Shown here in pieces: positions 11,124 through 46,425 of a DNA stretch of 64,000 nt. Positions within the stretch are counted from its first letter, which is position 1, and every line of letters begins with the position of its first letter. The stretch is taken from NCBI GenBank assembly GCA_025362495.1, contig JANYGI010000161.1, positions 1 to 64,000 of the forward strand. The letters are read 5' to 3'. The notes beneath the pieces are model-generated. The model was not told the origin of the DNA, did no database searches, and was given only the letters and a program-made list of their open reading frames with translations. The position numbers and the translations under genes were made by a program. This stretch comes from Byssovorax sp. (GTDB lineage Bacteria; Myxococcota_A; Polyangia; Polyangiales; Polyangiaceae).

Positions 11124-11134
11124 GACCGGGCTCC

Positions 11135-18464: not shown

Positions 18465-19559
18465 CTACTTCACCGTGCCAGAAGCCTTGACGCTCGCCTT
18501 CACGCCGACGGTGGGAGTCGCCGCGTCCTTGCGTTCGTCGGCCGTGGTGACGTTCTTCATGTCGAACGACGGAGGCGCGTTCGGATCGCAGTCGGGCGGC
18601 GGGCCGAAGCCATCGGCGTTGAACTTCCACTCCAGCGCTCCGGAGCCGTTGGGGTTCTTGGCGTTGGCGACGATCTTCACCTCGTGATCGCCCTTGCGCG
18701 CCGGGGTGCAGTACGAGAGCAGGTAAAAGCGCTTGGTGTGGGCCTCGATCCGCGCGGCGGTGCGGTCGAAGGCCTCCTTGACCTTGGCCTGATCGGAGGC
18801 CAGCTCCGTCCCGTCGCGGCCCACGTCTTCGAGGTGGGCCTTCTCGATCTCGGCGCCGACGCCGATGGCCAGCATCTCGTAGTTTTCGTACTTCTCCTCG
18901 GCGATCTCGCGCTTCATCTCGTCGCGCGTGTGGCGGGCGGCGCGGTCGGTGCCGTCCGTGAAGAGCACGAGCGTGCCGAACTTCAGCGGCTTGCGCTCCT
19001 TGTCGAGCGAGCGCTTCAGCTCGCGCAGGCCCTCGATCACGGCGCCGTGGAGGTTCGTCGACGGGTCCTTGGCCTTGTACTTCCGGAGCCCTTCGAGGCC
19101 GCCCTGGACCTGGCCCTGCGCCTCGGTGAAGGGGACGACGGAGTGGAGCTTCTCCTCGCCGTCGAAGGCGAAGACGCCGACTTTTTGCGACTTCCCGAGC
19201 CGATCGGCGAACGACTTGCTCGCGTCGACGAGCGTGTCGGCCGCGCCGGACTCGGTGATGCTGCCGCTCATGTCGACCAGCAGCATCGTGTACATGACCG
19301 CGGCGACCTCCGGGTTCTGGATGGTCTGCTTGCTCTCGAACTTGGACACGAGATCGCCGTCCTCGTAGATGGCAAAATCCTCGGCGGCGAGCCCACCGAC
19401 GGGATCGTTCTTGCCCCGGTCGACGGTGAAGAACACCCAGACATTGTTGGGCTTCTTCTGCGCCGAATTGACGAGCTTGACGTTGACCCCGCCGCAGGCG
19501 CTGGCGAGGAGCGAGAGGGCAGCGACGGCGGCTAGGAACAGGCGGTTTGATCGGCTCAC
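18465..19559 (-). CDS. von Willebrand factor A domain lipoprotein
   Basis: A 364-residue lipoprotein from the GTG start (VSRSNRLFLAAVAALSLLASAC, lipobox Cys). The vWA domain begins ~85 with the metal-ion-dependent adhesion site DMSGS and includes FTDGTD. The helices and strands between (FADRLGKSQKVGVFAFDGEEKL, LHGAVIEGLRELK) fit the fold. The C-terminal ~80 residues form a beta-rich region ending in VKASVKASGTVK. The protein is likely anchored in the envelope and binds a protein ligand through a divalent metal. It lies in the same direction as the FG-GAP lipoprotein, ~600 bases apart. An ATG 13 codons upstream is an alternative start but would lengthen the signal peptide awkwardly. Confidence 0.85.
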   Translation of the reverse strand: MSRSNRLFLAAVAALSLLASACGGVNVKLVNSAQKKPNNVWVFFTVDRGKNDPVGGLAAEDFAIYEDGDLVSKFESKQTIQNPEVAAVMYTMLLVDMSGSITESGAADTLVDASKSFADRLGKSQKVGVFAFDGEEKLHSVVPFTEAQGQVQGGLEGLRKYKAKDPSTNLHGAVIEGLRELKRSLDKERKPLKFGTLVLFTDGTDRAARHTRDEMKREIAEEKYENYEMLAIGVGAEIEKAHLEDVGRDGTELASDQAKVKEAFDRTAARIEAHTKRFYLLSYCTPARKGDHEVKIVANAKNPNGSGALEWKFNADGFGPPPDCDPNAPPSFDMKNVTTADERKDAATPTVGVKASVKASGTVK

Positions 19560-19765
19560 ACGCCGAGGTTGCCCGCCTGGAGACGGGCCTGTCAACAACG
19601 TCGGACGTCCGCGCGGGGGATCTCCGTGGCGCTGGACTCAATTTCCCGCCTGCTCCGCATTTGGGTCCGAGGTCGCATGAGGTGGGCAGAGAAGACGCGC
19701 GCTCGGGAACATCGTCGCGAGCTACCTTGGCCGGCGACGCGCAATCCGGGTAGTCTGCCCACGAC

Positions 19766-20185
19766 ATGGCCCGGATACTCCTCGTCGAAGACTCCGCAGC
19801 GATGCGGACCTACGTGCGCGCCGCGCTCGAAGGCCTCCCGGCGCTCGGAGACGACGGCGAGATCGTCGAGGCCGCGAGCGGCTTCAACGCGCTGCGGCTC
19901 CTGCCGCGCGCCGCCTACGACCTCGTCATCACCGACATCAACATGCCGGACATCAACGGGCTCGAGCTCTTGAGCTTCGTCCGCAAGAGCCCGCTCTACA
20001 AGGAGATCCCGCTGCTGATCATCTCGACGCAGGCCTCGGAGCGCGATCGGGAGCGCGGGCTCGCCCTCGGCGCCGACGGGTTCCTCGCCAAGCCCTTCAC
20101 TCCCGAGGCGATCCGGCACGCCGTCACGCAGAGCCTCTCGGGGCGCGGCTCGTCCGGCGGCGACGCCGCGCGGAGCCGAGCCTGA
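19766..20185 (+). CDS. CheY-like response regulator
   Basis: A 139-residue single-domain receiver. It has the acidic pair Glu8-Asp9, phospho-acceptor Asp57 in DLVITDINMPD, Thr88 in IISTQAS, and Lys109 in LAKPF, so all conserved positions are present. There is no output domain, so it probably diffuses to a target when phosphorylated by the neighbouring CheA. Its stop codon overlaps the start of cheA by one base, a sign of translational coupling. It heads a seven-gene chemosensory operon. Confidence 0.92.
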   Translation: MARILLVEDSAAMRTYVRAALEGLPALGDDGEIVEAASGFNALRLLPRAAYDLVITDINMPDINGLELLSFVRKSPLYKEIPLLIISTQASERDRERGLALGADGFLAKPFTPEAIRHAVTQSLSGRGSSGGDAARSRA

Positions 20186-22419
20186 TGGCCGAGAGCGGCG
20201 ATCGGGCGCGAGAGGAGTTCCTCTCCGAAGCCCAGGAGATCGTGGAGGGGCTCGGGCGCGATCTGCTCGCGCTCGACGAGGGCCTGCGCGCCTCGCGCCT
20301 CGATCCGAGCCTGATCAACGACGTGTTCCGCGCGGTCCACACGCTGAAGGGGCTCGCCGGGCTCTTCGGCGCGACCCGCATGGCCTCGCTCTCGCACGAG
20401 CTCGAAGAGCTGCTCGACAAGCTCCGCCTCGGCAAGGTCGACCTGACGGCGGGCGTGCTCGATCTGCTCTTCCGATCGGTGCAGCTCTACGGCCTGATCT
20501 TGCAGGCCGAAAAAGAGGGGCGCGATCAGGTCATCCCCGAGGTCGACGAGCTGGTGCGCGAGCTCAACCGCAACGGCGGCGCCGGCGTCGCGGCGGCCGC
20601 GGCCGCGCCGAGCCGCTACGAGCTCGATCCCAGCCTGCTCGCGGTGCTGACCGAGTACGAAGAGCACCGCCTGCGCGCCAACATCGCCCAGGGGCTCCGG
20701 CTCTACCGGCTGCGCGTGCAGTTCCAGCTCGCGACGATCGATCAGGCGCTCGACGAGCTCAAGGCGATGGCCAAGCCGCACGGCGAGATCATCACCTACC
20801 TGCCGACGGGGGCCGGCGCCGACGCCGACTCGATCGAGCTCGACATCCTCATGGCCTCGGCCGTCGGGACCGAGGATCTCCGCCATGCGCTCGCGAGCGG
20901 CGGGGTCGATCTGGAAGAGATCCCGCGGCGCGCGGGCAGCTCGGGATCGTCGGGCAACACCGGGCCATCGTCGGTGCGGATCCCGCAGCACACGCCGCTC
21001 CCGGCGAGCGGCCTCGGGGTGCCGTCGCTCGCGCCGCCGTCCCGCCACGACGAGGTGAGCCACGGTCCGAAGGGCGATCTCGGCACGCTGCGATCCGTCG
21101 CTCAGACGGTGCGCGTCGACATCCACAAGCTCGACCGCCTGATGAACATCGTCGGCGAGCTATCCATCGTGCGCACGTCGATGGCGCGCCTGGTCGAGCG
21201 GCTCCGCGCCGAGCGGATCGAGCGCGATCTCGCGGCCGACGTGCACCGCCTCCAGCGCACGTTCGAGCGGCACCTCGGGGCGATGCAGCAGGGCATCCTC
21301 GAGGTGCGGATGGTCCCGCTGGGGCAGGTGTTCGACAAGCTCGCGCGCGTCGTCCGCCAGATCAGCCGCGAGGCCGACAAGCTCGTCAACCTGGTGATCA
21401 CGGGCGCCGAGACCGAGGTCGACAAGCTCATCGTCGAAGAGCTGAGTGATCCGCTCATGCACATGATGCGCAACGCCATCGATCACGGGATCGAGACGCG
21501 GGGCGAGCGGGAGGCGGTGGGCAAGCCGGCGCTCGGCACCATCGCGCTCAACGCCTTCCAGAAGGGCAACCACGTCGTCATCGAGATCGAGGACGACGGC
21601 CGCGGGATCGACACGTCGCGCCTCCTCGAAGCGAGCGTGCGCCGCGGGGTGATCTCCGCCGACGACGCGCGATCGATCAGCCGCGCCGAGATCCTCAACC
21701 TGATCTTCATCCCCGGCGTCTCCACGAAGAGCGAGGTCAGCGAGACCTCCGGCCGCGGCGTGGGGATGGACGTCGTCAAGACGAACATCGGCAAGCTCGG
21801 CGGCGTGATCGACGTGCAGAGCGAGCAGGGCATCGGCACGAAGATGACCGTCACGCTGCCGATCACGCTGGCGATCATCAGCGCGCTGGTGGTCCTCGTC
21901 GAGGACCGGCTCTTCGCGGTGCCGCTCGCCAACGTGCAGGAGGCCGTGGTGCTCGATCCGGCCGCGGTGCGCGTGATCGACGGCCGCGAGGTCGTGACGC
22001 TGCGCGGGAGCACGCTGCAGCTCTGCCGTCTCGCGCGGCTGTTCGAGCTCGAGACGCAGGCCAAACAGCCGACGACGAACGGGTGGCCGTCGAGCTCGGG
22101 CGCGGGCGCCCCCGGCAGCGCCAGCTCCGACTCGCGGCCCGCGGCGCGGCCCGCCTCCACGCGGCAATACGTGGTCGTCACCGCCGTCGGCGCGCGGCGG
22201 CTGGGGCTCGTCGTCGGCACCCTCGTCGGCGAGCAAGACGTGGTGATCAAGGCGCTCGGCCCGTCGCTGAAGGGCGTGCGCGGGTTCGCCGGCGCGAGCG
22301 AGCTCGGCGATCAACGCATCGCCCTCGTCATCGACGCGCCCTCGCTCGTCGACGAGCTTCATGCGCCCGGTGGCGAGCGCGTCCGCCCGATGATCGCGTC
22401 ACGAGGCAGTCATGGCTAA
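20185..22419 (+). CDS. cheA: Chemotaxis-type histidine kinase CheA
   Basis: A 744-residue CheA. The N-terminal Hpt domain has phospho-acceptor His52 in VHTLKGLAG. Residues ~145-255 hold an extra alpha/beta segment (SLLAVLTEYEEHRLRAN...) in place of a standard CheY-binding P2 domain. A linker precedes the dimerisation helices (VDIHKLDRLMNIVGELS). The ATPase domain has the N box HMMRNAIDHG, DDGRGID, and GRGVGMDVV. A CheW-like domain ends the protein, interrupted by a Ser/Pro/Ala-rich insertion (about 630-660). It phosphorylates CheY and CheB in a receptor array; no receptor gene is in the window. It overlaps the next gene by 8 bases. Confidence 0.93.
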   Translation: MAESGDRAREEFLSEAQEIVEGLGRDLLALDEGLRASRLDPSLINDVFRAVHTLKGLAGLFGATRMASLSHELEELLDKLRLGKVDLTAGVLDLLFRSVQLYGLILQAEKEGRDQVIPEVDELVRELNRNGGAGVAAAAAAPSRYELDPSLLAVLTEYEEHRLRANIAQGLRLYRLRVQFQLATIDQALDELKAMAKPHGEIITYLPTGAGADADSIELDILMASAVGTEDLRHALASGGVDLEEIPRRAGSSGSSGNTGPSSVRIPQHTPLPASGLGVPSLAPPSRHDEVSHGPKGDLGTLRSVAQTVRVDIHKLDRLMNIVGELSIVRTSMARLVERLRAERIERDLAADVHRLQRTFERHLGAMQQGILEVRMVPLGQVFDKLARVVRQISREADKLVNLVITGAETEVDKLIVEELSDPLMHMMRNAIDHGIETRGEREAVGKPALGTIALNAFQKGNHVVIEIEDDGRGIDTSRLLEASVRRGVISADDARSISRAEILNLIFIPGVSTKSEVSETSGRGVGMDVVKTNIGKLGGVIDVQSEQGIGTKMTVTLPITLAIISALVVLVEDRLFAVPLANVQEAVVLDPAAVRVIDGREVVTLRGSTLQLCRLARLFELETQAKQPTTNGWPSSSGAGAPGSASSDSRPAARPASTRQYVVVTAVGARRLGLVVGTLVGEQDVVIKALGPSLKGVRGFAGASELGDQRIALVIDAPSLVDELHAPGGERVRPMIASRGSHG

Positions 22420-22972
22420 TCTCGCCCGTCGAGGCAGCTCTCCTGCGGGGCTCCGTCGCGCTCGCCCCGCGGATCGCGGACCGCGCACCGAGTACCTCGC
22501 CTTCGTCCTCGCGGGCGACGTGTACGCCGCGCCGGTGTCGTTCGTGCGCGAGATCTTGAAGCCGCCCCCGCTGACGCCGGTGCCGCGCGCGCCCCACGCG
22601 ATCATGGGGATCGTGAGCGTGCGCGGGCAGCTCGTCACCGTCGTCGATCTGCGACGGCGCCTCCGCCTCGCCGAGCCGACGCCGACGCGACGCGCGCGGA
22701 TCCTCCTCGCCGACGCGAGCGGGGGCGAGACGCTGGGCCTCTTCGTCGACGAGGTGCTCCAGGTGTACCGCCTCTCGGAGAGCGAAAAAGAGCCGGCAGC
22801 CGCGGCGCTCGGCGGCGACGTCGCGCCCTACATCGAGGGGATCGCGCGGCCGTCGGTGGGCTCGGGGCTCGCGGCGGGAGGCCGCCGCAGCGTCGAGGGC
22901 CGCACCGACGACGAGTCGCACATCTCGGTCGTCATCCTCCTCGACCTCCGCGCCGTGCTCGGCTTTTCTTGA
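22412..22972 (+). CDS. CheW-like coupling protein 1
   Basis: A 186-residue CheW domain protein linking CheA to receptors. The typical opening YLAFVLAGDVYAAPVSFVREIL appears after a basic 26-residue extension. Then come VPRAPHAIMGIVSVRGQLVTVVDLR, the classic CheW core, and LFVDEVLQVYRL. Compared with the second CheW it carries a ~35-residue insertion (APYIEGIARPSVGSGLAAGG) before the last strand. It overlaps cheA by 8 bases and precedes the second cheW by 17 bases. Two CheW proteins in one operon suggest two receptor types or two interfaces. Confidence 0.9.
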   Translation: MANLARRGSSPAGLRRARPADRGPRTEYLAFVLAGDVYAAPVSFVREILKPPPLTPVPRAPHAIMGIVSVRGQLVTVVDLRRRLRLAEPTPTRRARILLADASGGETLGLFVDEVLQVYRLSESEKEPAAAALGGDVAPYIEGIARPSVGSGLAAGGRRSVEGRTDDESHISVVILLDLRAVLGFS

Positions 22973-22989
22973 GCTTCCAGGGGAACTCG

Positions 22990-23472
22990 ATGTCCGACAC
23001 CGGCCCGCGTCACCGCACCGAAGCCCAGAAGAACCTCGTCGGCTTCGTCGTCGGCCCGGTCGCCTATGCCGTCGACATCGGGCGGGTCCGCGAGATCGTC
23101 AATCCTCTCGAGGTCACGCCGCTGCCGCACATGCCGTTCGAGGTCGCCGGCGTCTCGGATCACCGCGGCGAGGTCATCCCGGTGATCGATCTGCGCGCGC
23201 GCTTCGGCCTCGATCGCGCCGAGAACGGTCGCAATACCAAGTGGATCCTGCTCCACGCGGGCGGCGAGCGATCGGTCGGCATCATCGTCGACTCCGTCAC
23301 CGAGGTCTTCGGTGCGGCCGACGGCATCCGGCCCACGCCCGAGGTCGGCGGCAACCGCGACGTGCGCGGCATCGCCGGCGTCGTCACCCACAACGGGCGG
23401 CTCACGTTCGTCCTGGAGACGGGGCGCTTCATCGAAATCTTCGAAGCCCTCTCGGCCTCGGGCGTCGTCTAG
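22990..23472 (+). CDS. CheW-like coupling protein 2
   Basis: A 160-residue CheW protein. Core motifs are NLVGFVVGPVAYAVDIGRVREIV, LPHMPFEVAGVSDHRGEVIPVIDLRARF and GIIVDSVTEVF, followed by a final strand LTFVLETGRF. I use the ATG at 22990, which has a CAGGGGA ribosome site; an in-frame ATG 21 bases upstream is at the edge of the preceding gene and less likely. Sequence is closer to canonical CheW than the first copy. It is followed after 8 bases by the HEAT-repeat gene. Confidence 0.92.
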   Translation: MSDTGPRHRTEAQKNLVGFVVGPVAYAVDIGRVREIVNPLEVTPLPHMPFEVAGVSDHRGEVIPVIDLRARFGLDRAENGRNTKWILLHAGGERSVGIIVDSVTEVFGAADGIRPTPEVGGNRDVRGIAGVVTHNGRLTFVLETGRFIEIFEALSASGVV

Positions 23473-23480
23473 GAGGCCAC

Positions 23481-25685
23481 ATGGGTCCTTCCGACTCGGA
23501 GTCTGTCCGCCTCGCCCTCGCGTCCGTGAACGCCGAGGAGCGCCGCCTGGCCACCTCGCGCCTCGCCGAGCTCGACCCCGCGGAGGCCATCCCGTTGCTC
23601 GTGCGCGCCCTCGGCGACGACGACTGGCGCGTGCGCAAGGAGGCCACGGTGGCGGCCCGCGGCATCCCGCCGGAGCCCGGCCTCGTCGCCGCGATGATCG
23701 ACGTCCTCCGCGCGGGCGACAACGTCGGCCTCCGCAACGCCGCGGTCGAGGTCCTCGCGGCCACGGGGTCGGCCGCGACGACGGGGCTCCTCGCGGCGCT
23801 CGGCGAGCTCGACGCCGACGGGCGCAAGCTGACGATCGAGGCGCTCGGAGGCGGCGGCGATCCGGCCTCGCTCGGGCCGCTCGAGGCGCTGCTCGCGCGC
23901 GACGCCGACGACAACGTCCGCGCGGCGGCGGCGCTGGCGATCGCGCAGCTCGGCGTGATCGCCCCGGCGCACGTCCAGGAGATCCTGCTGCAGTGCCTCG
24001 ACGATCGCGATCGCCTCGTGCGCCTCACCGCGCTCGAAGGCCTCGCGGCGCTGCGCGCGGCGACCCCGTGGGAGCGCCTCGCGCCGCTGTTCGACGATCC
24101 AATGCTGCGCGGCGCCGCGATCACCGCGGCGGCCCTCTCGGATCGCCCCGAGGCGGCGCAGGCCGTCGCGCGCGAGCTCGGCCGCGCGCGCGCCGGGGGC
24201 TTCACGCAGGCGCTGCCCGCGCTCGCGCAGCTCGCTGACGGCCCGCTCTCGGCGCGCGTCGAGGCCGCCCTCCGCGCCGAGGGGCCGGAGCTCGGCGCGC
24301 GCCTCGCGCAGCTCGCGGCCGACGTCACGCAACCGACGGAGCTGCGCGCGATGGCCCTCCGCCTCGCGGCCGCCGCTCGCGCCGAGGCCGCCGCCGGCGC
24401 CGCGTTCGCCGCGCTCTCGGAGGAGATGCTCACCGACGCCGCGCGCAACGCGCTGCTCGTGCTCGGCGCGCCGGCGTTGCCGTCAATGCTCGCGCACCTC
24501 GACGATCCCGCCGCGCCCGTCGACGCGCGCGCCCAGCTCGTCGAGGTCCTCGCCGAGATCGCCTCGAACCACCGCGGCGCCGTCGCCACGGGCGTCCTCG
24601 GCGCGCTCCGCCGCGCGGCCCGCGACGACGCGCGTGACGTCGCCAGCGGGGCGCTCAACGCCCTCGCGCGCCTCGGCGACGAGTCCGATCTCGCGCTCGC
24701 CGCGGCGGGGACTCTCTCGAAGGAGCGGGCGATCGCCGCCGCCGCCGAGGCCGCGCTCTCCACGCTCTCGGGCCGCTTCCCCGAGGCCGCGCGCGCCCAC
24801 ATCGCGCGCCTCGTCGAGAGCGAGCCGCACCACCTCGCCGCGGCGCTGGTCATGGGCGCGCTCGCCGGCCTCGGCGCCGACGAGGGCGACGACGCCACGT
24901 TCCTCGCCCACGTCGCCACCACGGGCAACACCGACGCGCGGCGCGCCGCGGTCCTCGCCGTCGCCGAGATCGGCGGCACCGCGGCGATGGAAGTGCTGAG
25001 CTTCGCCCTCGCCGACGAGGAGCGCGAGGTCCGCTTCGCCGCGGCGCGCGCCCTCGGCCGCCGCTGCGTCGCGCTGGCCTCGCCGTCGCCGAGCGAGATC
25101 CTCGATCTCGTCGAGCGCACCGGCGCGTCCGAGCTCGTCGCCACGACCGTGCGCGCCGTGGGCGAGGGGATGAGCCTCGCGTACTCCGAGCGCCGATCCG
25201 CGCCGCCCGCGCCGCCTCCGCCCGAGCTCATCTCGGTGCTCGCCCTCTTCGCGCGCGGGGCGCCCAGCGCCGTCGCGCTCGCGGCCGTCGACGCCCTCGG
25301 CCAGACGATCGCCGCCGGCACGCTCGCGGCGTGCGACGCCATCGCCGCGGCGCTCGAGCACCCTGACGCCTCGGTCGCCAAGGCCGCAGCGTTCAAGCTC
25401 GCCGAGACGGCGCTCGGCCGCGAGGCGCTCGGTCGTTGCCTCGATCACCCGTCGCCCGGCGTCCGCCTCCTCGCCGTCGAGCTGCTCGCCGAGGTCGACC
25501 TCGCCGGCGCGCGCGCGCGCCTCACGCGCCGCAGCCTCGTCGAGCTCGATCGCGACGTGCGCAACGCCATCGATCGCGCGCTGTCCCCGGGCTCGCGCAG
25601 CTTCGGCTCCATGGGCCCGCCCCAGTCCGCGCACGAGGGGACGCCGCCGCGCGGCCTCTCGCGCCTCGGAGAGGGAGACCGGTAG
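23481..25685 (+). CDS. HEAT-repeat protein of the chemosensory operon
   Basis: A 734-residue protein made nearly entirely of HEAT (PBS-lyase-like) repeats, about 30-35 residues each. Examples are AIPLLVRALGDDDWRVRKEATVAAR and REVRFAAARALGRR. It starts at an ATG eight bases after cheW, with a strong AGGAGG site, and its stop TAG overlaps the GTG of cheR. No catalytic Cys/His or bilin-lyase residues were recognised, so it is probably a scaffold. HEAT-repeat partners occur in some myxobacterial chemosensory clusters, for example Che7 of Myxococcus xanthus. A role in assembling or tuning the array is inferred. Confidence 0.88.
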   Translation: MGPSDSESVRLALASVNAEERRLATSRLAELDPAEAIPLLVRALGDDDWRVRKEATVAARGIPPEPGLVAAMIDVLRAGDNVGLRNAAVEVLAATGSAATTGLLAALGELDADGRKLTIEALGGGGDPASLGPLEALLARDADDNVRAAAALAIAQLGVIAPAHVQEILLQCLDDRDRLVRLTALEGLAALRAATPWERLAPLFDDPMLRGAAITAAALSDRPEAAQAVARELGRARAGGFTQALPALAQLADGPLSARVEAALRAEGPELGARLAQLAADVTQPTELRAMALRLAAAARAEAAAGAAFAALSEEMLTDAARNALLVLGAPALPSMLAHLDDPAAPVDARAQLVEVLAEIASNHRGAVATGVLGALRRAARDDARDVASGALNALARLGDESDLALAAAGTLSKERAIAAAAEAALSTLSGRFPEAARAHIARLVESEPHHLAAALVMGALAGLGADEGDDATFLAHVATTGNTDARRAAVLAVAEIGGTAAMEVLSFALADEEREVRFAAARALGRRCVALASPSPSEILDLVERTGASELVATTVRAVGEGMSLAYSERRSAPPAPPPPELISVLALFARGAPSAVALAAVDALGQTIAAGTLAACDAIAAALEHPDASVAKAAAFKLAETALGREALGRCLDHPSPGVRLLAVELLAEVDLAGARARLTRRSLVELDRDVRNAIDRALSPGSRSFGSMGPPQSAHEGTPPRGLSRLGEGDR

Positions 25686-26716
25686 TGCCCGTCGGCGGCG
25701 ACGTTCACCTCGAGATGGCCGAGTTCCGGCTGCTGCGCGAGCTCTTCAACGAGCACTGCGGCATCCTGTTCGGCCCCGAGGCCAAGCCGATCGTCGAGCG
25801 TCGCCTCCGCGATCGTATCTCCGCGCTCGGGCTCCACTCGTTCAGCGAGTACTACCAGCTCCTCCGCTTCGAGGAGCGCGGCCGCGCCGAGCTCGACGAG
25901 GCCACCGATCTCATCACGATCAACGAGACCTACTTCTTCCGCGAGACCTACCAGCTCCGCGCCTACCGGGAGGAGATCCTCCCGATGCTCCGCTCCGGCC
26001 CCGCGGCGCGCGATCGCCTCAACGTGTGGAGCGCGGGCTGCTCCACGGGCGAAGAGGTCTACTCGATCGCCATGCTCACCCGCGACGCGGGGCTCTTCCC
26101 CGGGCGCACCGTGCGCATCTTCGGCAGCGACATCTCGCGCCGCTGCGTCATCGCCGCGCGACGCGGCGTCTACGGCCCGTCGGCGTTTCGCGCGACGCCG
26201 GTCGACATGCGGCGCCGCTACTTCGTCGAGCGCCCCGACGGCATGCACGTCGCCGACGAGCTCCGCGCGCTCTGCCAGTTCGGCCAGCTCAACCTCCTCG
26301 ACGGCGCCCGCGCCTCGGTCGTCGGCCGCGTCGACGTGATCTTCTGTCGCAACGTGATGATCTACTTCGACGAGGCCTCGCGCCGTCGCGTGATCGAGAT
26401 GTTCTACGATCGACTTCTCCCGGGCGGGTTCTTGCTCCTCGGCCACTCGGAGTCGCTGCTGAACGTCTCGACCGCGTTCGAGCTCGTTCACCTCCGCGAA
26501 GACCTCGTCTACCGCAAGCCCATCACCGCGACGCGGCTCGGCGCCTCATTTTATCCGGCTGCCGGTGAGGGCCGCATGACCTCGCCGATGTCGGGCGGCT
26601 CGCAGACGCGCGCGCCGCGCACGCTCGAAGCGCCGATCGCGCCCACGCCGGCGGCGCCGCGATCGCCCGCGGTGAAGCCGAGCTCCCCGCCGGGTGCCGG
26701 CAGCGACAAGCGGTAA
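25685..26716 (+). CDS. cheR: CheR-type protein-glutamate methyltransferase
   Basis: A 343-residue CheR that would methylate receptor glutamates with SAM. The GTG start overlaps the preceding TAG (TAGTG). An N-terminal helical domain is followed by ITINETYFFRE and the SAM-binding loop VWSAGCSTGEEVYS (from about residue 113). It then has GSDIS, the RRRYFVE helix, and VDVIFCRNVMIYFD, all typical. The last ~70 residues are a Pro/Ala/Ser-rich disordered tail, longer than in Escherichia coli. Thirty-five bases separate it from cheB. A receptor substrate is expected outside the window. Confidence 0.92.
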   Translation: MPVGGDVHLEMAEFRLLRELFNEHCGILFGPEAKPIVERRLRDRISALGLHSFSEYYQLLRFEERGRAELDEATDLITINETYFFRETYQLRAYREEILPMLRSGPAARDRLNVWSAGCSTGEEVYSIAMLTRDAGLFPGRTVRIFGSDISRRCVIAARRGVYGPSAFRATPVDMRRRYFVERPDGMHVADELRALCQFGQLNLLDGARASVVGRVDVIFCRNVMIYFDEASRRRVIEMFYDRLLPGGFLLLGHSESLLNVSTAFELVHLREDLVYRKPITATRLGASFYPAAGEGRMTSPMSGGSQTRAPRTLEAPIAPTPAAPRSPAVKPSSPPGAGSDKR

Positions 26717-26751
26717 CGTTCGATCCGTCTTCCAGGTAGGATAGGTTCCCC

Positions 26752-27828
26752 GTGGTGACTGCCTCCCCGCTCCGCGTCCTGGTCGTCGACGACTCGGCGT
26801 ACAACCGCAAGAACATCTCCGAGATCCTCACCACCGGGAGCGAAGACGTCGAGATCGTGGGGAAGGCGGGCGACGGCGACGAGGCCCTCAAGCTCGCGGC
26901 CCAGCTCAAGCCCGACGTCATCACGCTCGATCTCGAGATGCCGCGGATGGACGGCTTCACCTTCCTCCGCATCCTGATGGCCAGGCAGCCCACGCCGGTC
27001 ATCGTCATCTCGAGCTACTCGAACAAAGAGAACGTCTTCAAGGCGCTGGAGCTCGGCGCGATCGACTTCGTCGCCAAGCCCGATCGCCAGTTCGCGCCCG
27101 ACGGCCCGATCCGCCGCGAGATCCTCGGCAAGGTCCTCCTCGTCCGGCACCTGCGCCCGCTGTCGACGATCTCCGCCGCGCGCCACAGCACGCCCACGCC
27201 GCTCCGCGCGCCCGACGCGCCGCCTGCCCGCGCGGGCGGCGTCCCCCGCTACGTCGTCGGGATCGCCTCGTCCACGGGCGGCCCCTCCGCGCTGCTCGAG
27301 CTCTTCTCGCGCATCCCCGAGCGCTTCCCCGGCGCGATCCTCATCGCCCAGCACATGCCCGACAAGTTCACCAAGACGTTCGCTGAGCGCCTCGACAAGA
27401 AGGGCGCGATCCGCACCGTCGAGGCCCAGGACGGCGACATCGTCTCCGCTCGCCGCGCCTACGTTTGCCCCGGGAAAATGTGCATGGAAGTCACCGGCGG
27501 CTTCGGCGCGACCGGCGGCTACAACGAGATGCGGCTCCGCATCGCCGCGCCCAACGCCAACGATCGCTACGTGCCCAGCGCCGACCGGCTCCTCCGCAGC
27601 GTCGCCCAGGTCGCGGGCTCGCGATCGATCGGGATCATCCTCACGGGCATGGGCGACGACGGCTGCGTCGGCGCCCGCGCGATCCGGGCGGCGGGCGGCA
27701 CCGTCATCGCCGAGAGCGAAGAGACGGCGGTCGTCTACGGCATGCCCGGCGCCGCGGTCCGCGCCGGGATCGTCACCGAAGGCCTCGCGTTGCCGGCGAT
27801 CGGCGACTACCTCGCCACGCTCCAGTGA
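26752..27828 (+). CDS. cheB: CheB receptor methylesterase/response regulator
   Basis: A 358-residue CheB. The receiver domain has Asp60 in VITLDLEMPRMDG as phospho-acceptor. A linker rich in Pro/Ala/Arg follows, then the methylesterase with the catalytic triad: Ser174 in SSTGGPSAL, His201 in QHMPDKFT, Asp303 in GMGDDG. All are intact. The start is one of two adjacent GTG codons (26752 or 26755). It ends the chemosensory operon; 90 bases follow before the lytic transglycosylase gene. Together with CheR it allows adaptation, so this is a full signalling unit lacking only receptors. Confidence 0.93.
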   Translation: MVTASPLRVLVVDDSAYNRKNISEILTTGSEDVEIVGKAGDGDEALKLAAQLKPDVITLDLEMPRMDGFTFLRILMARQPTPVIVISSYSNKENVFKALELGAIDFVAKPDRQFAPDGPIRREILGKVLLVRHLRPLSTISAARHSTPTPLRAPDAPPARAGGVPRYVVGIASSTGGPSALLELFSRIPERFPGAILIAQHMPDKFTKTFAERLDKKGAIRTVEAQDGDIVSARRAYVCPGKMCMEVTGGFGATGGYNEMRLRIAAPNANDRYVPSADRLLRSVAQVAGSRSIGIILTGMGDDGCVGARAIRAAGGTVIAESEETAVVYGMPGAAVRAGIVTEGLALPAIGDYLATLQ

Positions 27829-27918
27829 TCCCGCGTCGCTCCCGCGCGCGGACCGCGTCTCACGTTTTCGCGCCAAAGTTGACCCATCCCGCCTGACATC
27901 GGTCACAATCCGCGCCCA

Positions 27919-30117
27919 ATGCGGATCCTTTGCGCCGCCCGCGCGCTGGTTGTTGCCGGCGCCCTCTTCTCCCTCGTCGCCCCGACCGAGGCGCTCGCGC
28001 AGGGCGCCCCCAAGGGCGCGGTCAAGCCCAAGCCCGCGGCTGCCAAGCCCGGCGCCGGCAAGGCGCCCGCGAAGCCCATCGCCAGGCCTCCCGCGGCAGC
28101 GGCGAAGGGAGGGGGCAAGAAGGGCAGCGGCGGCGGCAAGAAGGCCCCGCGCAAGCCCGGCGCCGAGGCCGGCCAGCCCGACGAGGCCACGCGCCGGATC
28201 ATCGCCGGCACCTCCAGCCACGGCGTCCACGAATCGTTGGAGCTCAAAGCAATGCGCGAGCTCGACCTCGCGCTCTTCCCGAGCAACGCGGCCGGCGCCG
28301 GCGCGCCCTGGCTCGCGGAGGGCTCGCCCCTCGTCGATCGCGGCGAGCCGAAGCTCCTCGCCACCGGCCTCCCGCCCGCGGCCCCGATCGCCGCGCAGAG
28401 CGCCGACGCCGCGCCCGCGCCCGATCTCGCCTGGCTCCGCCAGCTCGCGATGCCCGACATCCCCGTCCGCTGGGACGGCCGCGTCGTGCGCTACCTCGAG
28501 TACTACAAGAACAACCCCCGCGGCCGCTCCATGGTCCAGAGCTGGCTCCGCCGCAGCGGGCGTTACGGCGGCTCGATCCGCCGCATCCTCCGCGAGCAGA
28601 ACCTCCCCGAAGACATCGTCTGGCTCGCCCTCGTCGAGAGCGGCTTCGACGCCTCGATCAGCTCCCCCGTCGGCGCCGCCGGCCTCTGGCAGTTCATGCC
28701 CGAGGGCGCGCGCATCTACGGGCTCACCGTCGATCGCTGGATCGACGAGCGCCTCGATCCCGAGCGCTCGACCCTCGCCGCCGCGCGCTACCTCGCCGAT
28801 CTCCGCCAGCGCTTCGGCGGCTGGGAGCTGGCGTTCGCGGCCTACAACATGGGCTACGGCGGCCTCCTCGCCTCGATCCGCAAGTACAACACCAACGACT
28901 TCTGGGAGCTCTCGCGCCTCGAATCCGGCATGCCCCTCGAGACGGCGCTCTACGTCCCCAAGATCGTCGCGATGGCCATCGTCGCCCGCAACAAGGCCAT
29001 CTTCGGCTGCGACGATCTCGAGCTCGATCCGGCGATCAATTTCGACAAGGTCGCCGTGGGCACGGGGGTCTCGCTCCGGGCCCTCGCGCTGGCGTCGGGC
29101 ACGTCGGTCGAGAAGCTCGAAGAGCTCAACCCGCAGATGCTCGCGAGCCGCGCCCCGCCGCTCGCCGCGGGCGACAAGAGCGATCTCACCTGGAACGTGC
29201 GCGTCCCCGCCGGCGCCGCATCGAAGGCCGCCAAATCGCTGAGCGCGTTCGTCGACGGCGACGGCAAGCTCGATCGTTACACCGTCCGCTGGGGCGAGTC
29301 GCTCGAGGACATCGCCCAGCGTCGCGGCGTCGCCCGCTACGCGCTGCAGAGCCTCAACGGGGTTCGTCGTGACGAGTCGCTCCGCCCGGGCACGGTGATC
29401 TTCGTCCCGGCCTCGGCCGCCTCGGATGTCTACGACGCGCCCACGGGCAAACCCACCGTCGTCGTGCCCGCGCAGGCCTTCACCTACGTCGATCGCGAGC
29501 GCGTCTTTTACCGCGTGATCCCCGGCGACACGCTCCGCGCCTTGGCCGCGGTCTTCAGCGTCTCTCCCGACGAGATCTCCCGCTGGAATGCCATCGATCC
29601 TTCCGCCGCATTGCACGATGGCATGACGCTCCAGATCTTCACGTCGAAGGAGAAGATACCCGCCGACGCGCTGGTCCTCGCCGAGAAAGACGCGATGATC
29701 CTCGCCTCGGGGACGCCGGAGTTCGTCGCTCATTTCGAGTCGCTCCGCGGCCGCTCGCGGGTCGAGGTCGTCGCCAAGCAGGGTGACACCTGGCGCACCG
29801 TCGCGGGCCGCTATGGCCTCTCGATGGGGCAGATGGAGCGCATCAATCATCGCTCGCGCACCAGCCCTCTTTGCGAGGGCGATCGCTGCGTCGTCTACGT
29901 GCCGACCGCCCGCGCGGCCGACGTCGCCAAGCGGAGCGGCGGAGTCATCACCGGAGCCGCCCCGGACGAGGCCCCGGCCGTCACCAAGCCCGTGGAAGAA
30001 GACGCCGCGCCCGCCAGCGCGGGCAAAGACGACGAAGGAACCACGTCCGCCGTGCTGATCAAGCCCGGCGCGACTGCCACTGATCCCGCGCCCGCGAGCC
30101 CCGCCCCGAAGCCCTGA
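27919..30117 (+). CDS. LysM-containing membrane-bound-type lytic transglycosylase (MltD-like)
   Basis: A 732-residue exported peptidoglycan-cleaving enzyme. Signal peptide at 1-28 (ending EALAQ), then a Lys/Ala/Pro-rich linker to ~85. The SLT goose-type lysozyme domain has catalytic Glu240 in LALVESGFDASISSPVGAAG, then LWQFMP and FAAYNMGYG. Three LysM motifs lie at about 453-495 (WGESLEDIAQRRG), 530-575 (PGDTLRALAAVF) and 615-660 (QGDTWRTVAGRYG), for binding glycan. The tail is Ala/Pro-rich. The domain order matches MltD. It probably acts in cell-wall remodelling in the periplasm. Hairpins follow its stop. Confidence 0.92.
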   Translation: MRILCAARALVVAGALFSLVAPTEALAQGAPKGAVKPKPAAAKPGAGKAPAKPIARPPAAAAKGGGKKGSGGGKKAPRKPGAEAGQPDEATRRIIAGTSSHGVHESLELKAMRELDLALFPSNAAGAGAPWLAEGSPLVDRGEPKLLATGLPPAAPIAAQSADAAPAPDLAWLRQLAMPDIPVRWDGRVVRYLEYYKNNPRGRSMVQSWLRRSGRYGGSIRRILREQNLPEDIVWLALVESGFDASISSPVGAAGLWQFMPEGARIYGLTVDRWIDERLDPERSTLAAARYLADLRQRFGGWELAFAAYNMGYGGLLASIRKYNTNDFWELSRLESGMPLETALYVPKIVAMAIVARNKAIFGCDDLELDPAINFDKVAVGTGVSLRALALASGTSVEKLEELNPQMLASRAPPLAAGDKSDLTWNVRVPAGAASKAAKSLSAFVDGDGKLDRYTVRWGESLEDIAQRRGVARYALQSLNGVRRDESLRPGTVIFVPASAASDVYDAPTGKPTVVVPAQAFTYVDRERVFYRVIPGDTLRALAAVFSVSPDEISRWNAIDPSAALHDGMTLQIFTSKEKIPADALVLAEKDAMILASGTPEFVAHFESLRGRSRVEVVAKQGDTWRTVAGRYGLSMGQMERINHRSRTSPLCEGDRCVVYVPTARAADVAKRSGGVITGAAPDEAPAVTKPVEEDAAPASAGKDDEGTTSAVLIKPGATATDPAPASPAPKP

Positions 30118-32008: not shown

Positions 32009-33328
32009 TCAGCCGGCGGCCAGCGCAGCACTGATGATTTTCCCGCCCTTGATCCGGGACTCCAGCGTACCGGCGTCGACCCCGAGCGCGGCGCCCAGCG
32101 TCTTGCCCATCGATTCGAGCGTTTGGTTCTCCGGGATATCGCCCTTCGCCGCGGCCGCGCCGGTGGAAGAGTCGATGGGTGAGGCGCCGAAGTCCTTGCC
32201 GGCGCCAAGGTCGCGCAGCCCGCCGATCACGCTCCCCTTGACGCCCTTGCCGATCATCACCGTGACGTGGTGGTCGGCGTTGTGGCTGCGCCCGTCCTTC
32301 GAGTCACGGAAGGTCCGGCCGAAGACATTGGAGAGCGCGAGCGTCACCCGGTCCTGGAGCCCCGCGCTCGTCAGGCCCGCGAGCAGGCCGCTCACTCGAT
32401 CGACGCCGCTCACGATCTCCTCGGCCTCGTGGGCGAGGCCGGTGTCGGTGTGATTGTCGCCGCCGAACGGAATCCCGATGGTCACCACCGGGCTCACCTT
32501 CATCAGCACGAGGGTGATGGCCGCGTTGATCTGGTCGTCGGGCGAATCGCCCGTGATCGCGTCGAGGCGCGCCAGCAAGCTATCCTGGATACCGCGGACC
32601 TGGGTCTGGCTGCTGGCATAGGCGTCGAGGAACTTGCGCTGAGCGAGGCTGCTGTCCTTGAGCTTCTCGTGCATCTGGTCGAGCGACTTGTCGCGGAGCT
32701 TGCGGAGGTCGCCGAGGATGCCCTTCTGGGCGCCGAGGATCCGCTTGAGCGCCGAGGGAGACACGCTGTTGAGGACGCGACCATCGTAGCTCAGGCTCAG
32801 GTCCTCGACCGAGATCGGCTCGATTTGCAGGGTGTCGAGGCGCGGCGCGAGGCGGCTCGCGTAGATGGATACCGCCATATCTTCACCGTTGATGACCCCG
32901 CCGCTGAGACGCTTGGCCGAGCCCATGAGACGAAGCACCTTGGCCTCGTCGCTGTGGCTCAGCGTGTAGGTCGAGTTGTGGAAGAACGACGTGCGCGCCC
33001 GCACCTCGGCCGGCAGCGTGCCCCACGGCGCGGCGCCGATCGCCGACGTCGCCCCGAGCTGGATCTTGGTGGGCAAAAGCTCCGCGCGCGCGTTGTACAC
33101 GGCGCCCTCCGCCTCGTGCCCGTAGCTCCCGGGCGCCGACGTGTTGAGCGGATCGCCAGCGCCGGAGGTGCTGAGGATCAGGAACTGGGCGTCGTCCGGC
33201 GGAGGAGGCGTGTCCGCGCGGGCGTCGGCGAGGAAGCTCATCGGCAAGCCGGTTGCGAGGGAGCGGAGCCCGAGCAGGCCACCGCCGGCGAAGAGACCGA
33301 AGAGAAATGCGCGTCGCTGGGTGTTCAT
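32009..33328 (-). CDS. Secreted DUF1501-like protein, copy B
   Basis: A 439-residue exported protein, paralogue of the one at 9813-11123. It has a Tat-like start (MNTQRRAFLFGLFAGGGLLG). The shared landmarks appear in the same order: ILSTSGAGDP, FGGDNHTDTGL, LSNVFGRT, HNADHHV and a Gly-rich loop (KGVKGSVIGG). The membrane-distal helices (QRKFLDAYASSQTQ) also match. It is encoded 19 bases downstream of a CxxCH lipoprotein gene, exactly as in the first module. Function unknown; an alkaline-phosphatase-like fold is inferred from the family. Confidence 0.75.
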   Translation of the reverse strand: MNTQRRAFLFGLFAGGGLLGLRSLATGLPMSFLADARADTPPPPDDAQFLILSTSGAGDPLNTSAPGSYGHEAEGAVYNARAELLPTKIQLGATSAIGAAPWGTLPAEVRARTSFFHNSTYTLSHSDEAKVLRLMGSAKRLSGGVINGEDMAVSIYASRLAPRLDTLQIEPISVEDLSLSYDGRVLNSVSPSALKRILGAQKGILGDLRKLRDKSLDQMHEKLKDSSLAQRKFLDAYASSQTQVRGIQDSLLARLDAITGDSPDDQINAAITLVLMKVSPVVTIGIPFGGDNHTDTGLAHEAEEIVSGVDRVSGLLAGLTSAGLQDRVTLALSNVFGRTFRDSKDGRSHNADHHVTVMIGKGVKGSVIGGLRDLGAGKDFGASPIDSSTGAAAAKGDIPENQTLESMGKTLGAALGVDAGTLESRIKGGKIISAALAAG

Positions 33329-33347
33329 GGGAGATCTCCTGTCCGGC

Positions 33348-35390
33348 TCAGAAGCCCAGAGAAGCGGTGAAAGGCGAGGTGCAGGCGAGCGTGAAGGCCG
33401 ACTTCAGCCCTTCGGTGGGCGTGGCCCCGGCGGTGTGCGCGTCGGCGAGGTGACTCGCGAGGAGGGCCCGCATCGCCGGCGCGCGGGCGTCGCCGTCCGG
33501 CAAACCCATCACGATGTGAACGAAATCGTCGAGCGCGGCGCCCGTCTTGGTGCTCACGTAGCGACCGCCGGTCACGTCGACGAGCTGATCGGCCAGCGAC
33601 TGGCAAATGGACTCCATCGTGCCTCGATAGAACATGTCCGGGAGCGTCGCCAGGAAGGGCCGCACCGCCCCCCGACCGAACCCGTCGTTGGGCAGGATGT
33701 GGACGAGCTGCGCCGTCTCGCTGAACTTGGGCTTGCCGTAGGTGTCGAGCTCGATCATCGGATCGCACGCGTTGGAGACCCCGAGGCGCGCCGAGAGCAG
33801 CCCACACATGTGCTGTCGCCGCATGATGCTGACCGGAAAGTCCTGCGTGTTCCAGGTGATCGTCCGCGTCGCGCCCGTCACCAGCGGAGAGCTGTAGAGC
33901 TCCCGCACCAGCGTCTTGAGCTTGAGCCCGCTCTTCTGGAAGACCTCGACGATGCGGATGAACTCTGGATCCTTCGCGCTACACCCGACGCTGTTGGCGT
34001 AGAAGCAGAGCTTCTGTACCCAGGCCGGCGCGAAGCTCGGGTGGGCCGCCAGCGTGTCGGCGAAATCGAGGATGCTGCCGCCGTCCTTGACGACGTCCTC
34101 GAAGCCAAAGGAGGCTCCATCGCTCTTGATCTTCTGGTCCGGCTGCGGGCGATAGTGGCTCTGGAAGTGCTGCCGGAAGTAGTTCCGCATCGGATCGAGG
34201 GTGCGGTGGCAGCCGTAGCAGGCCGTCCCGGGGACCGCGTGATCGGCTCCGAGCCCGACCTCCGTCGTCGGCACCGTCACGTCCTCCGGGTTGATGCTCT
34301 TGCCCAGCGCCACGATCAGCGTTTGATTCGTCACCACGCGGGAAGAGTTGCTGTCGTTGGTCGGCCACGTGGCAAAGAAGGCTGGCGTGGTGAAGAACCC
34401 GACCCGCGGCTGGCGCAGGTAAAGCGTCTTCACCGGCTCGAGCGCGGGGATGTCGTAGAAGCGCAGCGCGGGGGTCTTGTCCGAGGCCGCGGCGACGGTG
34501 ACCGGGCGCCAGTCGGTGTAGTCGGCGTCGGAGAAGCGCCCTTCGAGGTGGTGGTAGAACCCGCTGCAGTGGAGCGCGCCATGCAGGAAGTTGAGCAGCC
34601 AGAACGAGCTGAGCGTCCAGGGCTCGGGGCAGCTCTTGCCGGCCGGCCCCACCGTGAAGTCCACGTTGGTCCACCAGACTTTGTTCGTCATCTCGTAGTC
34701 CATCGACCACGGCGGCGCGGGGAGCCCGGCGGGGGGCTTGTGATAGAAGACGTGCTTGTCGGCCTGGATCGTCGGGTAGGGGACGTCCAGGTAAAGCAGG
34801 TACGAGGCGATCGCCGTGGTCATCATCATCTGACGGGTGTTGACGATCCCGCTCCAGGGCTCGTCTTTCTGGACGATCTGCACGGCCGTGCGCGCCGCCA
34901 TCTCCTGGAGGTTCGCGAAGAGCCGGACCGGGTTGGCGAAGAACTCTTCTCCATTCTGGTCCTGGATGGTCGAGTGGTTGATGTTGGTCTGCTGGAGGGC
35001 GACCTTGAACAGCTCCATCAGCTTGAGCTCGAAGGTCGGGCTCTTCATCCACTCGTCGATCAGGCCCTTCAGCGCGTCGGGATCGGCCTTGACGCTGGCG
35101 AGCTCCGCCGCGGTGACCGCGCCTCCGTTGATCAGGGTCTTGACGTGCGCGACGTAGGCCTCGGGCGGCTGGGGCTCGAAAGGCACCTGCGCGACCGGCG
35201 TGGACGGGCCTCCCCCGTCTCCGCCGCTCCCGGTGCCTGTGCTGTCACTCGCAGGCTGCTCGCGGTCCCCGAGCGTCCCCACGCAGCTGGGCGCGGCCGC
35301 CAGAAGCAGCGAAGCCGCGACGCCCGCCAGCGCGGCGCGAGAGGTGGTGACGAGCGTCGCCCTGGAGACGGAGACGGGTGAGGAACGCAT
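33348..35390 (-). CDS. CxxCH-containing lipoprotein (DUF1588/DUF1592-like), copy B
   Basis: A 680-residue lipoprotein and paralogue of the one at 11135-13264. From the ATG at 35390 it has a long signal region ending in LLLAAAPSC (lipobox), then a short Ser/Gly linker and the shared opening PPEAYVAHVKTLI. CYGCH (Cys391, Cys394, His395) followed by RTLDPMRNYF is the putative heme-c site, matching CFFCH-QTLDPTR in copy A. Extra Cys occur in both C-terminal halves (HMCGLLSARLGVSNAC; HLCAALNFRLGLVDVC), also conserved between copies. The frame stays open upstream, but 35391 onward is palindromic non-coding DNA. Confidence 0.75.
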   Translation of the reverse strand: MRSSPVSVSRATLVTTSRAALAGVAASLLLAAAPSCVGTLGDREQPASDSTGTGSGGDGGGPSTPVAQVPFEPQPPEAYVAHVKTLINGGAVTAAELASVKADPDALKGLIDEWMKSPTFELKLMELFKVALQQTNINHSTIQDQNGEEFFANPVRLFANLQEMAARTAVQIVQKDEPWSGIVNTRQMMMTTAIASYLLYLDVPYPTIQADKHVFYHKPPAGLPAPPWSMDYEMTNKVWWTNVDFTVGPAGKSCPEPWTLSSFWLLNFLHGALHCSGFYHHLEGRFSDADYTDWRPVTVAAASDKTPALRFYDIPALEPVKTLYLRQPRVGFFTTPAFFATWPTNDSNSSRVVTNQTLIVALGKSINPEDVTVPTTEVGLGADHAVPGTACYGCHRTLDPMRNYFRQHFQSHYRPQPDQKIKSDGASFGFEDVVKDGGSILDFADTLAAHPSFAPAWVQKLCFYANSVGCSAKDPEFIRIVEVFQKSGLKLKTLVRELYSSPLVTGATRTITWNTQDFPVSIMRRQHMCGLLSARLGVSNACDPMIELDTYGKPKFSETAQLVHILPNDGFGRGAVRPFLATLPDMFYRGTMESICQSLADQLVDVTGGRYVSTKTGAALDDFVHIVMGLPDGDARAPAMRALLASHLADAHTAGATPTEGLKSAFTLACTSPFTASLGF

Positions 35391-35504
35391 ACGATATCGA
35401 TGCTCCGCGGGACGAGGAGTCGGCCCCGGGCCGTCAATGGCACCTGGTGTGCCAACCGGAATCAGCCACAATTGGCGGGCTCCGGGCCGATTCGACTGGT
35501 CGGA

Positions 35505-35523
35505 GATGATCCACTGGATCATC
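35505..35523. promoter_or_regulatory. Palindromic operator-like site in the gap before copy B
   Basis: GATGATCCA-C-TGGATCATC is a perfect 9-bp-arm inverted repeat. A second one, GGATCGC (35539-35545) with GCGATCC (35552-35558), lies 16 bases further. Both are in the 308-bp gap upstream of the minus-strand CxxCH lipoprotein gene and downstream of the MFS permease gene. No other gene is visible in that gap. Confidence 0.45.
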
Positions 35524-36943: not shown

Positions 36944-37193
36944 CGCAATTGTCTCTTTCTGCTCGGGGGCGCTCTGCTGATGACCTGATCGGCCGAGCAG
37001 CACGCAGACACGGTATCACGAGCGCGCGGCGGGGCGTCTATTTCGTCCCAACTCCTCGGAGTGTCAGGAAACTCCTCAATTCGCGGTGCGAATCAGGTCG
37101 GGGCTGGTCGCCGCTCGAGAACGCCCCCATGAAGAGTCTGGAATTCGAGGAGGCGTAGATCCTCGCGAGGAGCAGGTGGGGCGAGTCCGGGCA

Positions 37194-46268: not shown

Positions 46269-46425
46269 GGACAGCACCTCTCGACGGCAGCGCCAGGGTA
46301 GACCAACCCGCCACGTCGGGGAGGGGCTTTCGCGGTCGTGATCAGCATTCGCGGAGGGGCGGAGTCGAATAACGCAACGCATTGGAGACGAACGGCGCGG
46401 CGAGGATGCTAGGCTCGCGGCCCTC

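Follow-up and report, generated by a model that had tools for sequence, protein, structure and literature searches.

The window analysed here, a stretch of 64,000 nucleotides (nt) from Byssovorax sp. (GenBank assembly GCA_025362495.1, contig JANYGI010000161.1; G000:C97:1-64000 in our notation, where G, C and L number genomes, contigs and loci), carries a seven-gene chemosensory operon with a gene for a HEAT-repeat solenoid protein in its midst. From sequence comparisons, this protein is most likely the output partner of the response regulator CheY and not a scaffold of the kinase CheA, a reading based on the joint absence of the HEAT protein and CheY from a subset of related operons and on the precedent of Cpc7, the HEAT protein of the Che7 system, which interacts with CheY7 (review PMC11514114; this and the other publications are cited from the extracts available). 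We regard as reasonably probable the fuller model in which the operon provides a signalling core of the Che8/beta-group type, works with a receptor encoded elsewhere in the genome and has the HEAT protein as the output partner of CheY.

The genome (10.8 Mb in 240 contigs) encodes the operon at positions 19766-27828 of the window, on the + strand, in the order cheY-cheA-cheW1-cheW2-HEAT-cheR-cheB, as established from open reading frames (ORFs) and Pfam domains, each of the seven genes giving one or more Pfam matches that exceed the curated threshold:

19766..20185, + strand: cheY, single-domain response regulator of 139 amino acids (aa), Response_reg
20185..22419, + strand: cheA, 744 aa, Hpt, H-kinase_dim, HATPase_c and CheW
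22412..22972, + strand: cheW1, 186 aa, CheW
22969..23472, + strand: cheW2, CheW, 167 aa from TTG 22969 or 160 aa from ATG 22990
23481..25685, + strand: HEAT solenoid protein, 734 aa from ATG 23481, HEAT_2/HEAT, 43 predicted helices
25685..26716, + strand: cheR, CheR_N and CheR, 343 aa from GTG 25685 or 333 aa from ATG 25715
26752..27828, + strand: cheB, 358 aa, receiver and methylesterase, Response_reg and CheB_methylest

The gene order and the 734-residue HEAT protein between the coupling and methylation genes agree with a preliminary description of the window made from its sequence. The overlaps between genes reported there exist at cheY/cheA (1 nt), at cheA/cheW1 (8 nt) and, depending on the start codon, at cheW1/cheW2 (4 nt given the TTG start) and HEAT/cheR (1 nt given the GTG start), whereas the remaining junctions are gaps of 8-35 nt. 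CheY has D9, D57, S87-T88 and K109, of which D9, D57 and K109 are invariant across 72 aligned CheYs. The Pfam scan found no receiver domain in CheA and no TPR match in CheR; residues ~146-245 of CheA resemble P2 by eye. CheA is 45-78% identical to its counterparts in 19 relatives, and among named organisms Minicystis rosea has the closest CheA (79% identity), followed by Sorangium, which points to a myxobacterium of the Polyangiaceae type, in keeping with the earlier designation of the operon as a myxobacterial chemosensory system of the alternative-function type with an open output. Also as described before, no receptor, flagellar or pilus gene lies nearby. All seven matches of the genome to methyl-accepting chemotaxis proteins (MCPs) are on other contigs, and the lack of any on the window contig rules out a receptor hidden within the cluster or the window. 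A Pfam scan of 33 further proteins of the window (four small ORFs were outside the scan) identified no flagellar or pilus protein, so that no flagellar genes are linked to the operon among the scanned proteins, the rest of the genome not having been searched for flagella. No sigma-70-type promoter was detected before cheY in a search of 19400-28100, a negative that is not informative for this organism.

To place the operon in context, we compared 59 genomes, the Byssovorax genome and 58 relatives, together with a contig-scan sample of named loci comprising the best 80 of 130 confirmed HEAT relatives, with no M. xanthus (Myxococcus xanthus) record among the 80; the gene content of loci was read through profile searches of all ORFs. 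Matches to the HEAT protein occur in 44 of the 59 genomes, including its own (E<=1e-3), some of them weak and generic to HEAT repeats. The che genes adjoin the HEAT gene in all 24 non-self loci fetched and in all 80 named loci, which excludes a chance association. A profile built from 23 HEAT sequences matched 215 of the 329 genomes of the phylum (E<=1e-10); many of these matches are partial and to other HEAT proteins, and the full-length, high-scoring ones are distributed over many families. Five more complete operons from other families (L258-L262), located through their HEAT genes, contain both CheY and HEAT. No CheA of this type was found in 13 genomes of family f36, which may be Myxococcaceae.

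CheY and the HEAT protein are missing together. Among 77 assessable operons (10 more were set aside as not assessable), 70 contain both and 7 contain neither, with no case of one alone (Fisher P = 4e-10, kinship ignored). The 70 include L208, in which the start of the HEAT gene is cut by a contig end and the family motif is present. HEAT-less genomes were defined as those with a CheA of this type and no HEAT match better than E 1e-4. The seven HEAT-less operons (L201-L206 and L211) each span cheA through cheB without a break in a single contig, so that assembly gaps can be rejected as the source of the missing genes, and the upstream cheY is missing in 7/7. All seven keep CheA, both CheWs and CheB, and five keep CheR; in L202 and L211 no cheR stands between cheW2 and cheB. 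Relocation of cheY was likewise rejected, as no close copy exists in nine HEAT-less genomes, where the best CheY genome-wide scores 70-89 bits, versus 116-183 bits in seven HEAT-bearing genomes. CheA is kept in all nine and the receptor orthologue introduced below in eight, with only a 32% identical relative in G010; one of the nine, G029, does have another HEAT gene on C76, as part of a separate che cluster. On the CheA tree, the 77 CheY-HEAT labels require at least 4 changes, and addition of the partly assessable L207 and L209 raises this number to 7, of which 5 are forced by supported branches.

AlphaFold2 modelling (63 sequences) yielded a confident solenoid of 43 helices, with a mean predicted local distance difference test score of 93.5. 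Conservation peaks in the first repeats, which include the invariant residues R21, R22, D46, W49, R50, R52, R85, N86 and K116; R487, D512 and V517 are further invariant residues. Some Asp and Arg positions are typical of HEAT repeats in general. This concentration of invariant residues suggests that the conserved N-terminal patch may be a binding site. Pfam identified no catalytic domain in the protein, and the best 50 fold matches in the PDB, which include no chemosensory protein, are generic, being CAND1, karyopherins, SF3B1 and other large HEAT solenoids.

The preliminary description had considered the HEAT protein a scaffold, that is, a structural organiser of CheA, CheW and receptors. Its gene does lie between the cheWs and cheR, or, in G041, directly beside cheA, and long HEAT solenoids such as the best PDB matches serve as scaffolds elsewhere. 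However, CheA, both CheWs and CheB persist in the HEAT-less operons and it is cheY that disappears with HEAT, which disfavours this role to the point of making it quite improbable. The G041 locus (L257:9-2868 on G041:C133) is itself unusual, with diverged cheY, cheA and HEAT genes directly adjacent, no cheW between them and the cluster cut by the contig start. Alternatively, the HEAT protein could act on CheY itself, as a phosphate sink, phosphatase helper or stabiliser, and not downstream of it. The joint absence of the two proteins would fit this too, but with no catalytic domain by Pfam, and with precedents that are either a target of CheY (Cpc7) or stand on the flagellar side of it (OE2401F, see below), such a function is unlikely, and an output partner of CheY is the role that we favour.

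The term 'receptor-less' used in the preliminary description holds for the cluster only and not for the genome, because a co-conserved orphan receptor is encoded elsewhere. Six MCP matches in the genome exceed the cut-off (two of them, on C95 and C119, are cut by contig ends) and one more is weak. One of these MCPs stands out:

G000:C220:51959-54094 (= L164:3960-6098): orphan MCP of 712 aa with two neighbouring predicted membrane helices and without a periplasmic domain

No che genes occur within the 12 kb examined around it. With a threshold of at least 390 bits, orthologues of the C220 receptor were found in 49 of the 59 genomes (51-100% identity across the aligned part), and the remaining MCP matches score at most 206 bits, except for a fragment in G033 at 264 bits. 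By its CheA (at least 45% identity with N-terminal coverage, or at least 420 bits), the operon is present in 50 of the 59 genomes, counting a contig-end fragment in G035, to which we added G034, where only the cheW2-HEAT-cheR-cheB end is assembled. The receptor sought in this comparison tracks the operon: 49 genomes have both, 2 the operon only, 8 neither and none the receptor only (Fisher P = 2e-8, kinship uncorrected). The two operon-only genomes are G010, the sole MCP of which is just 32% identical, and G021, which is 88% complete and in which no MCP was found. Exactly one MCP (E<=1e-10) is present in 11 genomes, and in nine of these (G003, G006, G024, G030, G039, G040, G049, G051 and G054) it is the C220-type receptor; G003 also has a single CheA match, and G023 combines a single MCP with neither the operon nor a C220-type receptor. 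These sequence-based patterns indicate that the receptor of the operon is very probably this one conserved, unlinked MCP.

The receptor family is recognisable by its architecture. Across 30 receptor loci, including our own, two close predicted membrane helices are present in 27, three in one and none in two. The hairpin tip of the C220 receptor is NAAIIAAQAGEHGKGFA; the tip of the receptor loci reads NAAIIAAQAGE or nearly so, versus NAA(V/I)EAARAGE in four other MCPs of the same genome. The two altered positions are presumably those of the trimer-contact residues of the Escherichia coli receptor Tsr. Between the membrane helices and the signalling domain, the C220 receptor has repeated stretches of ~50 aa, by eye possibly degenerate HAMP-like units, and the CheY-binding Pfam family gave only a weak match below the cut-off in this protein. 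No gene is common to all 20 receptor neighbourhoods examined; a tatC-family gene is close by in five, one member having been checked with Pfam as TatC and one having an adjacent TatA. A relative of the C220 receptor, with the tip AILAAQAGEHGK, adjoins cheW-HEAT-cheR-cheB at L139; this contig is titled Thermodesulfovibrionia, a name from outside the Myxococcota, and the occurrence there of a HEAT-che cluster and, linked to it, a C220-type receptor would imply transfer, great age or mis-binning of the contig.

Comparison with the Che classes of M. xanthus identified Che8 (MXAN_4751-4759) as the class that the window matches in gene content and order. Che8 is arranged as cheY8b-cheA8-cheW8b-cheW8a-(4755, 4754)-cheR8-cheB8-cheY8a (PMC3945109), and the two clusters share the order cheY-cheA-cheW-cheW-x-cheR-cheB, the lack of an mcp gene, a CheA without a receiver, a CheR without TPR and a CheB with a receiver (PMC3945109). 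They differ in the second cheY that follows cheB in Che8, where the window has:

27919..30117, + strand: LysM lytic transglycosylase (MltD-like), a neighbour 90 nt downstream of cheB, not counted as part of the operon

An extra cheY after cheB occurs in several relatives and is not a defining trait of Che8, as many relatives are without it; in 16 of the 59 assessable named loci, a lytic transglycosylase homologue is encoded on the same strand no more than 5 kb from cheB. The che clusters without mcp have been termed the beta group, with members in Geobacter, Stigmatella, Anaeromyxobacter, Plesiocystis and M. xanthus (PMC2577667), and Che8 is conserved in Anaeromyxobacter dehalogenans and Geobacter sulfurreducens (PMC2330069); the M. 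xanthus member of the beta group is presumably Che8. By gene content and order, the window operon matches this Che8/beta group. The function of Che8 is stated as unidentified, apart from an effect of cheA8 deletion on groEL, and a pull-down in M. xanthus recovered both CheA8 and CheA7 together with an orphan groEL regulator (PMC9040617). Within the extracts available, no HEAT protein is described for Che8, and MXAN_4754/4755 go unmentioned in those found under six Che8 locus tags. As to a well-studied orthologous cluster that already includes the HEAT protein, the related Che7 does have Cpc7, whereas the matching Che8 is, in these extracts, without an identified function.

Like the window operon, Che7 has a HEAT protein alongside a single-domain CheY, and orthology to it would make coupling of aggregation and sporulation the output. 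M. xanthus Che7, however, has its own receptor, Mcp7, and one CheW (PMC3945109), compared with no mcp and two cheW genes in the window. Moreover, Che7-like clusters exist separately: one, recognised by its order cheY-cheA-cheW-mcp-HEAT-cheR-cheB, is found in G153 (L154), with a distantly related CheA that reaches only 288 bits with our CheA profile, and six relatives (G002, G013, G019, G031, G043 and G050) carry, besides an operon of the window type, genes for CheA, MCP and HEAT clustered within 7.2 kb. Given these differences in order, cheW number and receptor, we reject Che7 orthology as very improbable and retain the assignment to Che8.

A receptor encoded apart from its partners has a parallel in the Esn system of G. 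sulfurreducens (EsnA GSU1704, EsnB GSU2220 and EsnC GSU2222), the receptor of which is likewise located away from the cheA/cheW cluster and has no periplasmic domain (PMC5585712). Despite this separation, the MCP EsnA was positive in two-hybrid assays with EsnB (CheW) and EsnC (CheA), and growth on electrodes requires the system (PMC5585712). Unlike the C220 receptor, EsnA has a GAF domain, and the proposed output of Esn is the diguanylate cyclase EsnD; esnBC presumably belong to beta-group cluster 5. The HEAT protein, in turn, has an analogue, with no claim of common descent, in OE2401F of Halobacterium, a HEAT_PBS protein of a che region that is required for coupling Che signalling to the flagellum (PMC2666748). 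OE2401F is archaeal, and the partners reported for it are CheD and OE2402F, a DUF439 protein, not CheY directly.

In M. xanthus, the probable orthologue of the C220 receptor, by synteny and grouping only, is McpJ (MXAN_5907), which has two membrane helices and was tied to Che7/Che8 by its authors (PMC3945109). This counterpart is suggested by the tatC-family genes near the receptor, since MXAN_5907 lies next to MmrA (MXAN_5906) and near TatBC (MXAN_5905-5904) (PMC3924187). McpJ is also likely to be the protein called RppA.

In the proposed mechanism, the C220 orphan MCP, CheW1, CheW2 and CheA would form one signalling complex, presumably with direct contact of the receptor with CheW/CheA; CheR and CheB would adapt the receptor; CheA would pass phosphate to CheY; and phosphorylated CheY would engage the HEAT solenoid as its output partner, as CheY7 does Cpc7 in Che7, probably through the conserved N-terminal patch. 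The steps up to CheY are proposed because they follow the established chemotaxis biochemistry of these families, and the HEAT step because of the co-absence with CheY and the Cpc7 precedent, with OE2401F as an analogy. The final output can only be guessed at: control of the cell surface or matrix (biofilm), as opposed to swimming, is weakly favoured by the reports on Geobacter, including an unpublished remark on extracellular matrix for its beta-group clusters (PMC2577667), by the title of the RppA/MmrA paper and by the adjacent lytic transglycosylase.

Several observations weigh against this interpretation. Deletion of McpJ caused no defect in published assays (PMC3945109), which counts against a surface or matrix output. 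G041, tallied above under 'neither', has a partial HEAT match, its diverged cluster at a contig end and no receptor of the C220 type; counted as operon-only, it changes the tally to 49 genomes with both, 3 with the operon only, 7 with neither and none with the receptor only. The sample of operons is non-random, nearly all HEAT-bearing ones having been found with a HEAT query, and once kinship is considered, there are only 3 independent pairs that supported branches define, or 4 if the best tree is taken; all agree, but they are too few for significance (sign test P = 0.25). The 10 operons outside the assessment also matter, and G035 and G036, in which cheY lies beside cheA on a contig that stops short of the HEAT position, with no match to HEAT anywhere, are possibly discordant, their assemblies being 77% and 88% complete. 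Some operons without HEAT and CheY may be decaying, since L202 and L211 are also without cheR. Co-absence and co-occurrence are in themselves no proof of binding, and the persistence of the receptor and CheA without CheY and HEAT is unexplained.

A tentative reading, to which we give slightly less than even chances, is that CheY and HEAT make up an output cassette that can be detached from a conserved core of CheA, CheW and a single receptor encoded elsewhere. The cassette would have been shed repeatedly and as a whole, the core then driving another response regulator, and HEAT solenoids would be recurrent effectors of CheY, comparable to FliM in flagella. Clusters of the Che8/beta-group type occur widely in Myxococcota, and in the literature extracts available Che8 is without a firmly assigned receptor or direct CheY target, for each of which one candidate is named here. 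Genomes with a single receptor make the pathway accessible to study free of cross-talk. If the HEAT protein is indeed a CheY effector, it would represent a second such system beside Cpc7 and suggest that CheY has targets beyond the flagellar motor that form a general class.

One relative, G009, has two CheA matches of this type on separate contigs, at C104:63197 and C35:324 (59% and 60% identity). In the window, the operon is flanked by two gene pairs on the - strand (9813-13264 and 32009-35522), each a DUF1501 protein beside a protein of ~710-720 aa, and other genes encode large proteins:

9813-11171, - strand: DUF1501 protein
11135-13264, - strand: ~710-720-aa protein, no Pfam family, 38% identical over 652 columns to its counterpart at 33348-35522
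32009-33328, - strand: DUF1501 protein
33348-35522, - strand: ~710-720-aa protein, no Pfam family
42399-46466, - strand: very large protein, 1355 aa, no Pfam family at E<=0.001
56001-59681, - strand: very large protein, 1226 aa, no Pfam family at E<=0.001
37086-40784, + strand: WD40-repeat-rich protein, 1232 aa (Pfam)
2065-5667, + strand: AMP-binding / carrier / NAD_binding_4 protein, 1200 aa (Pfam), which we take to resemble carboxylic acid reductase

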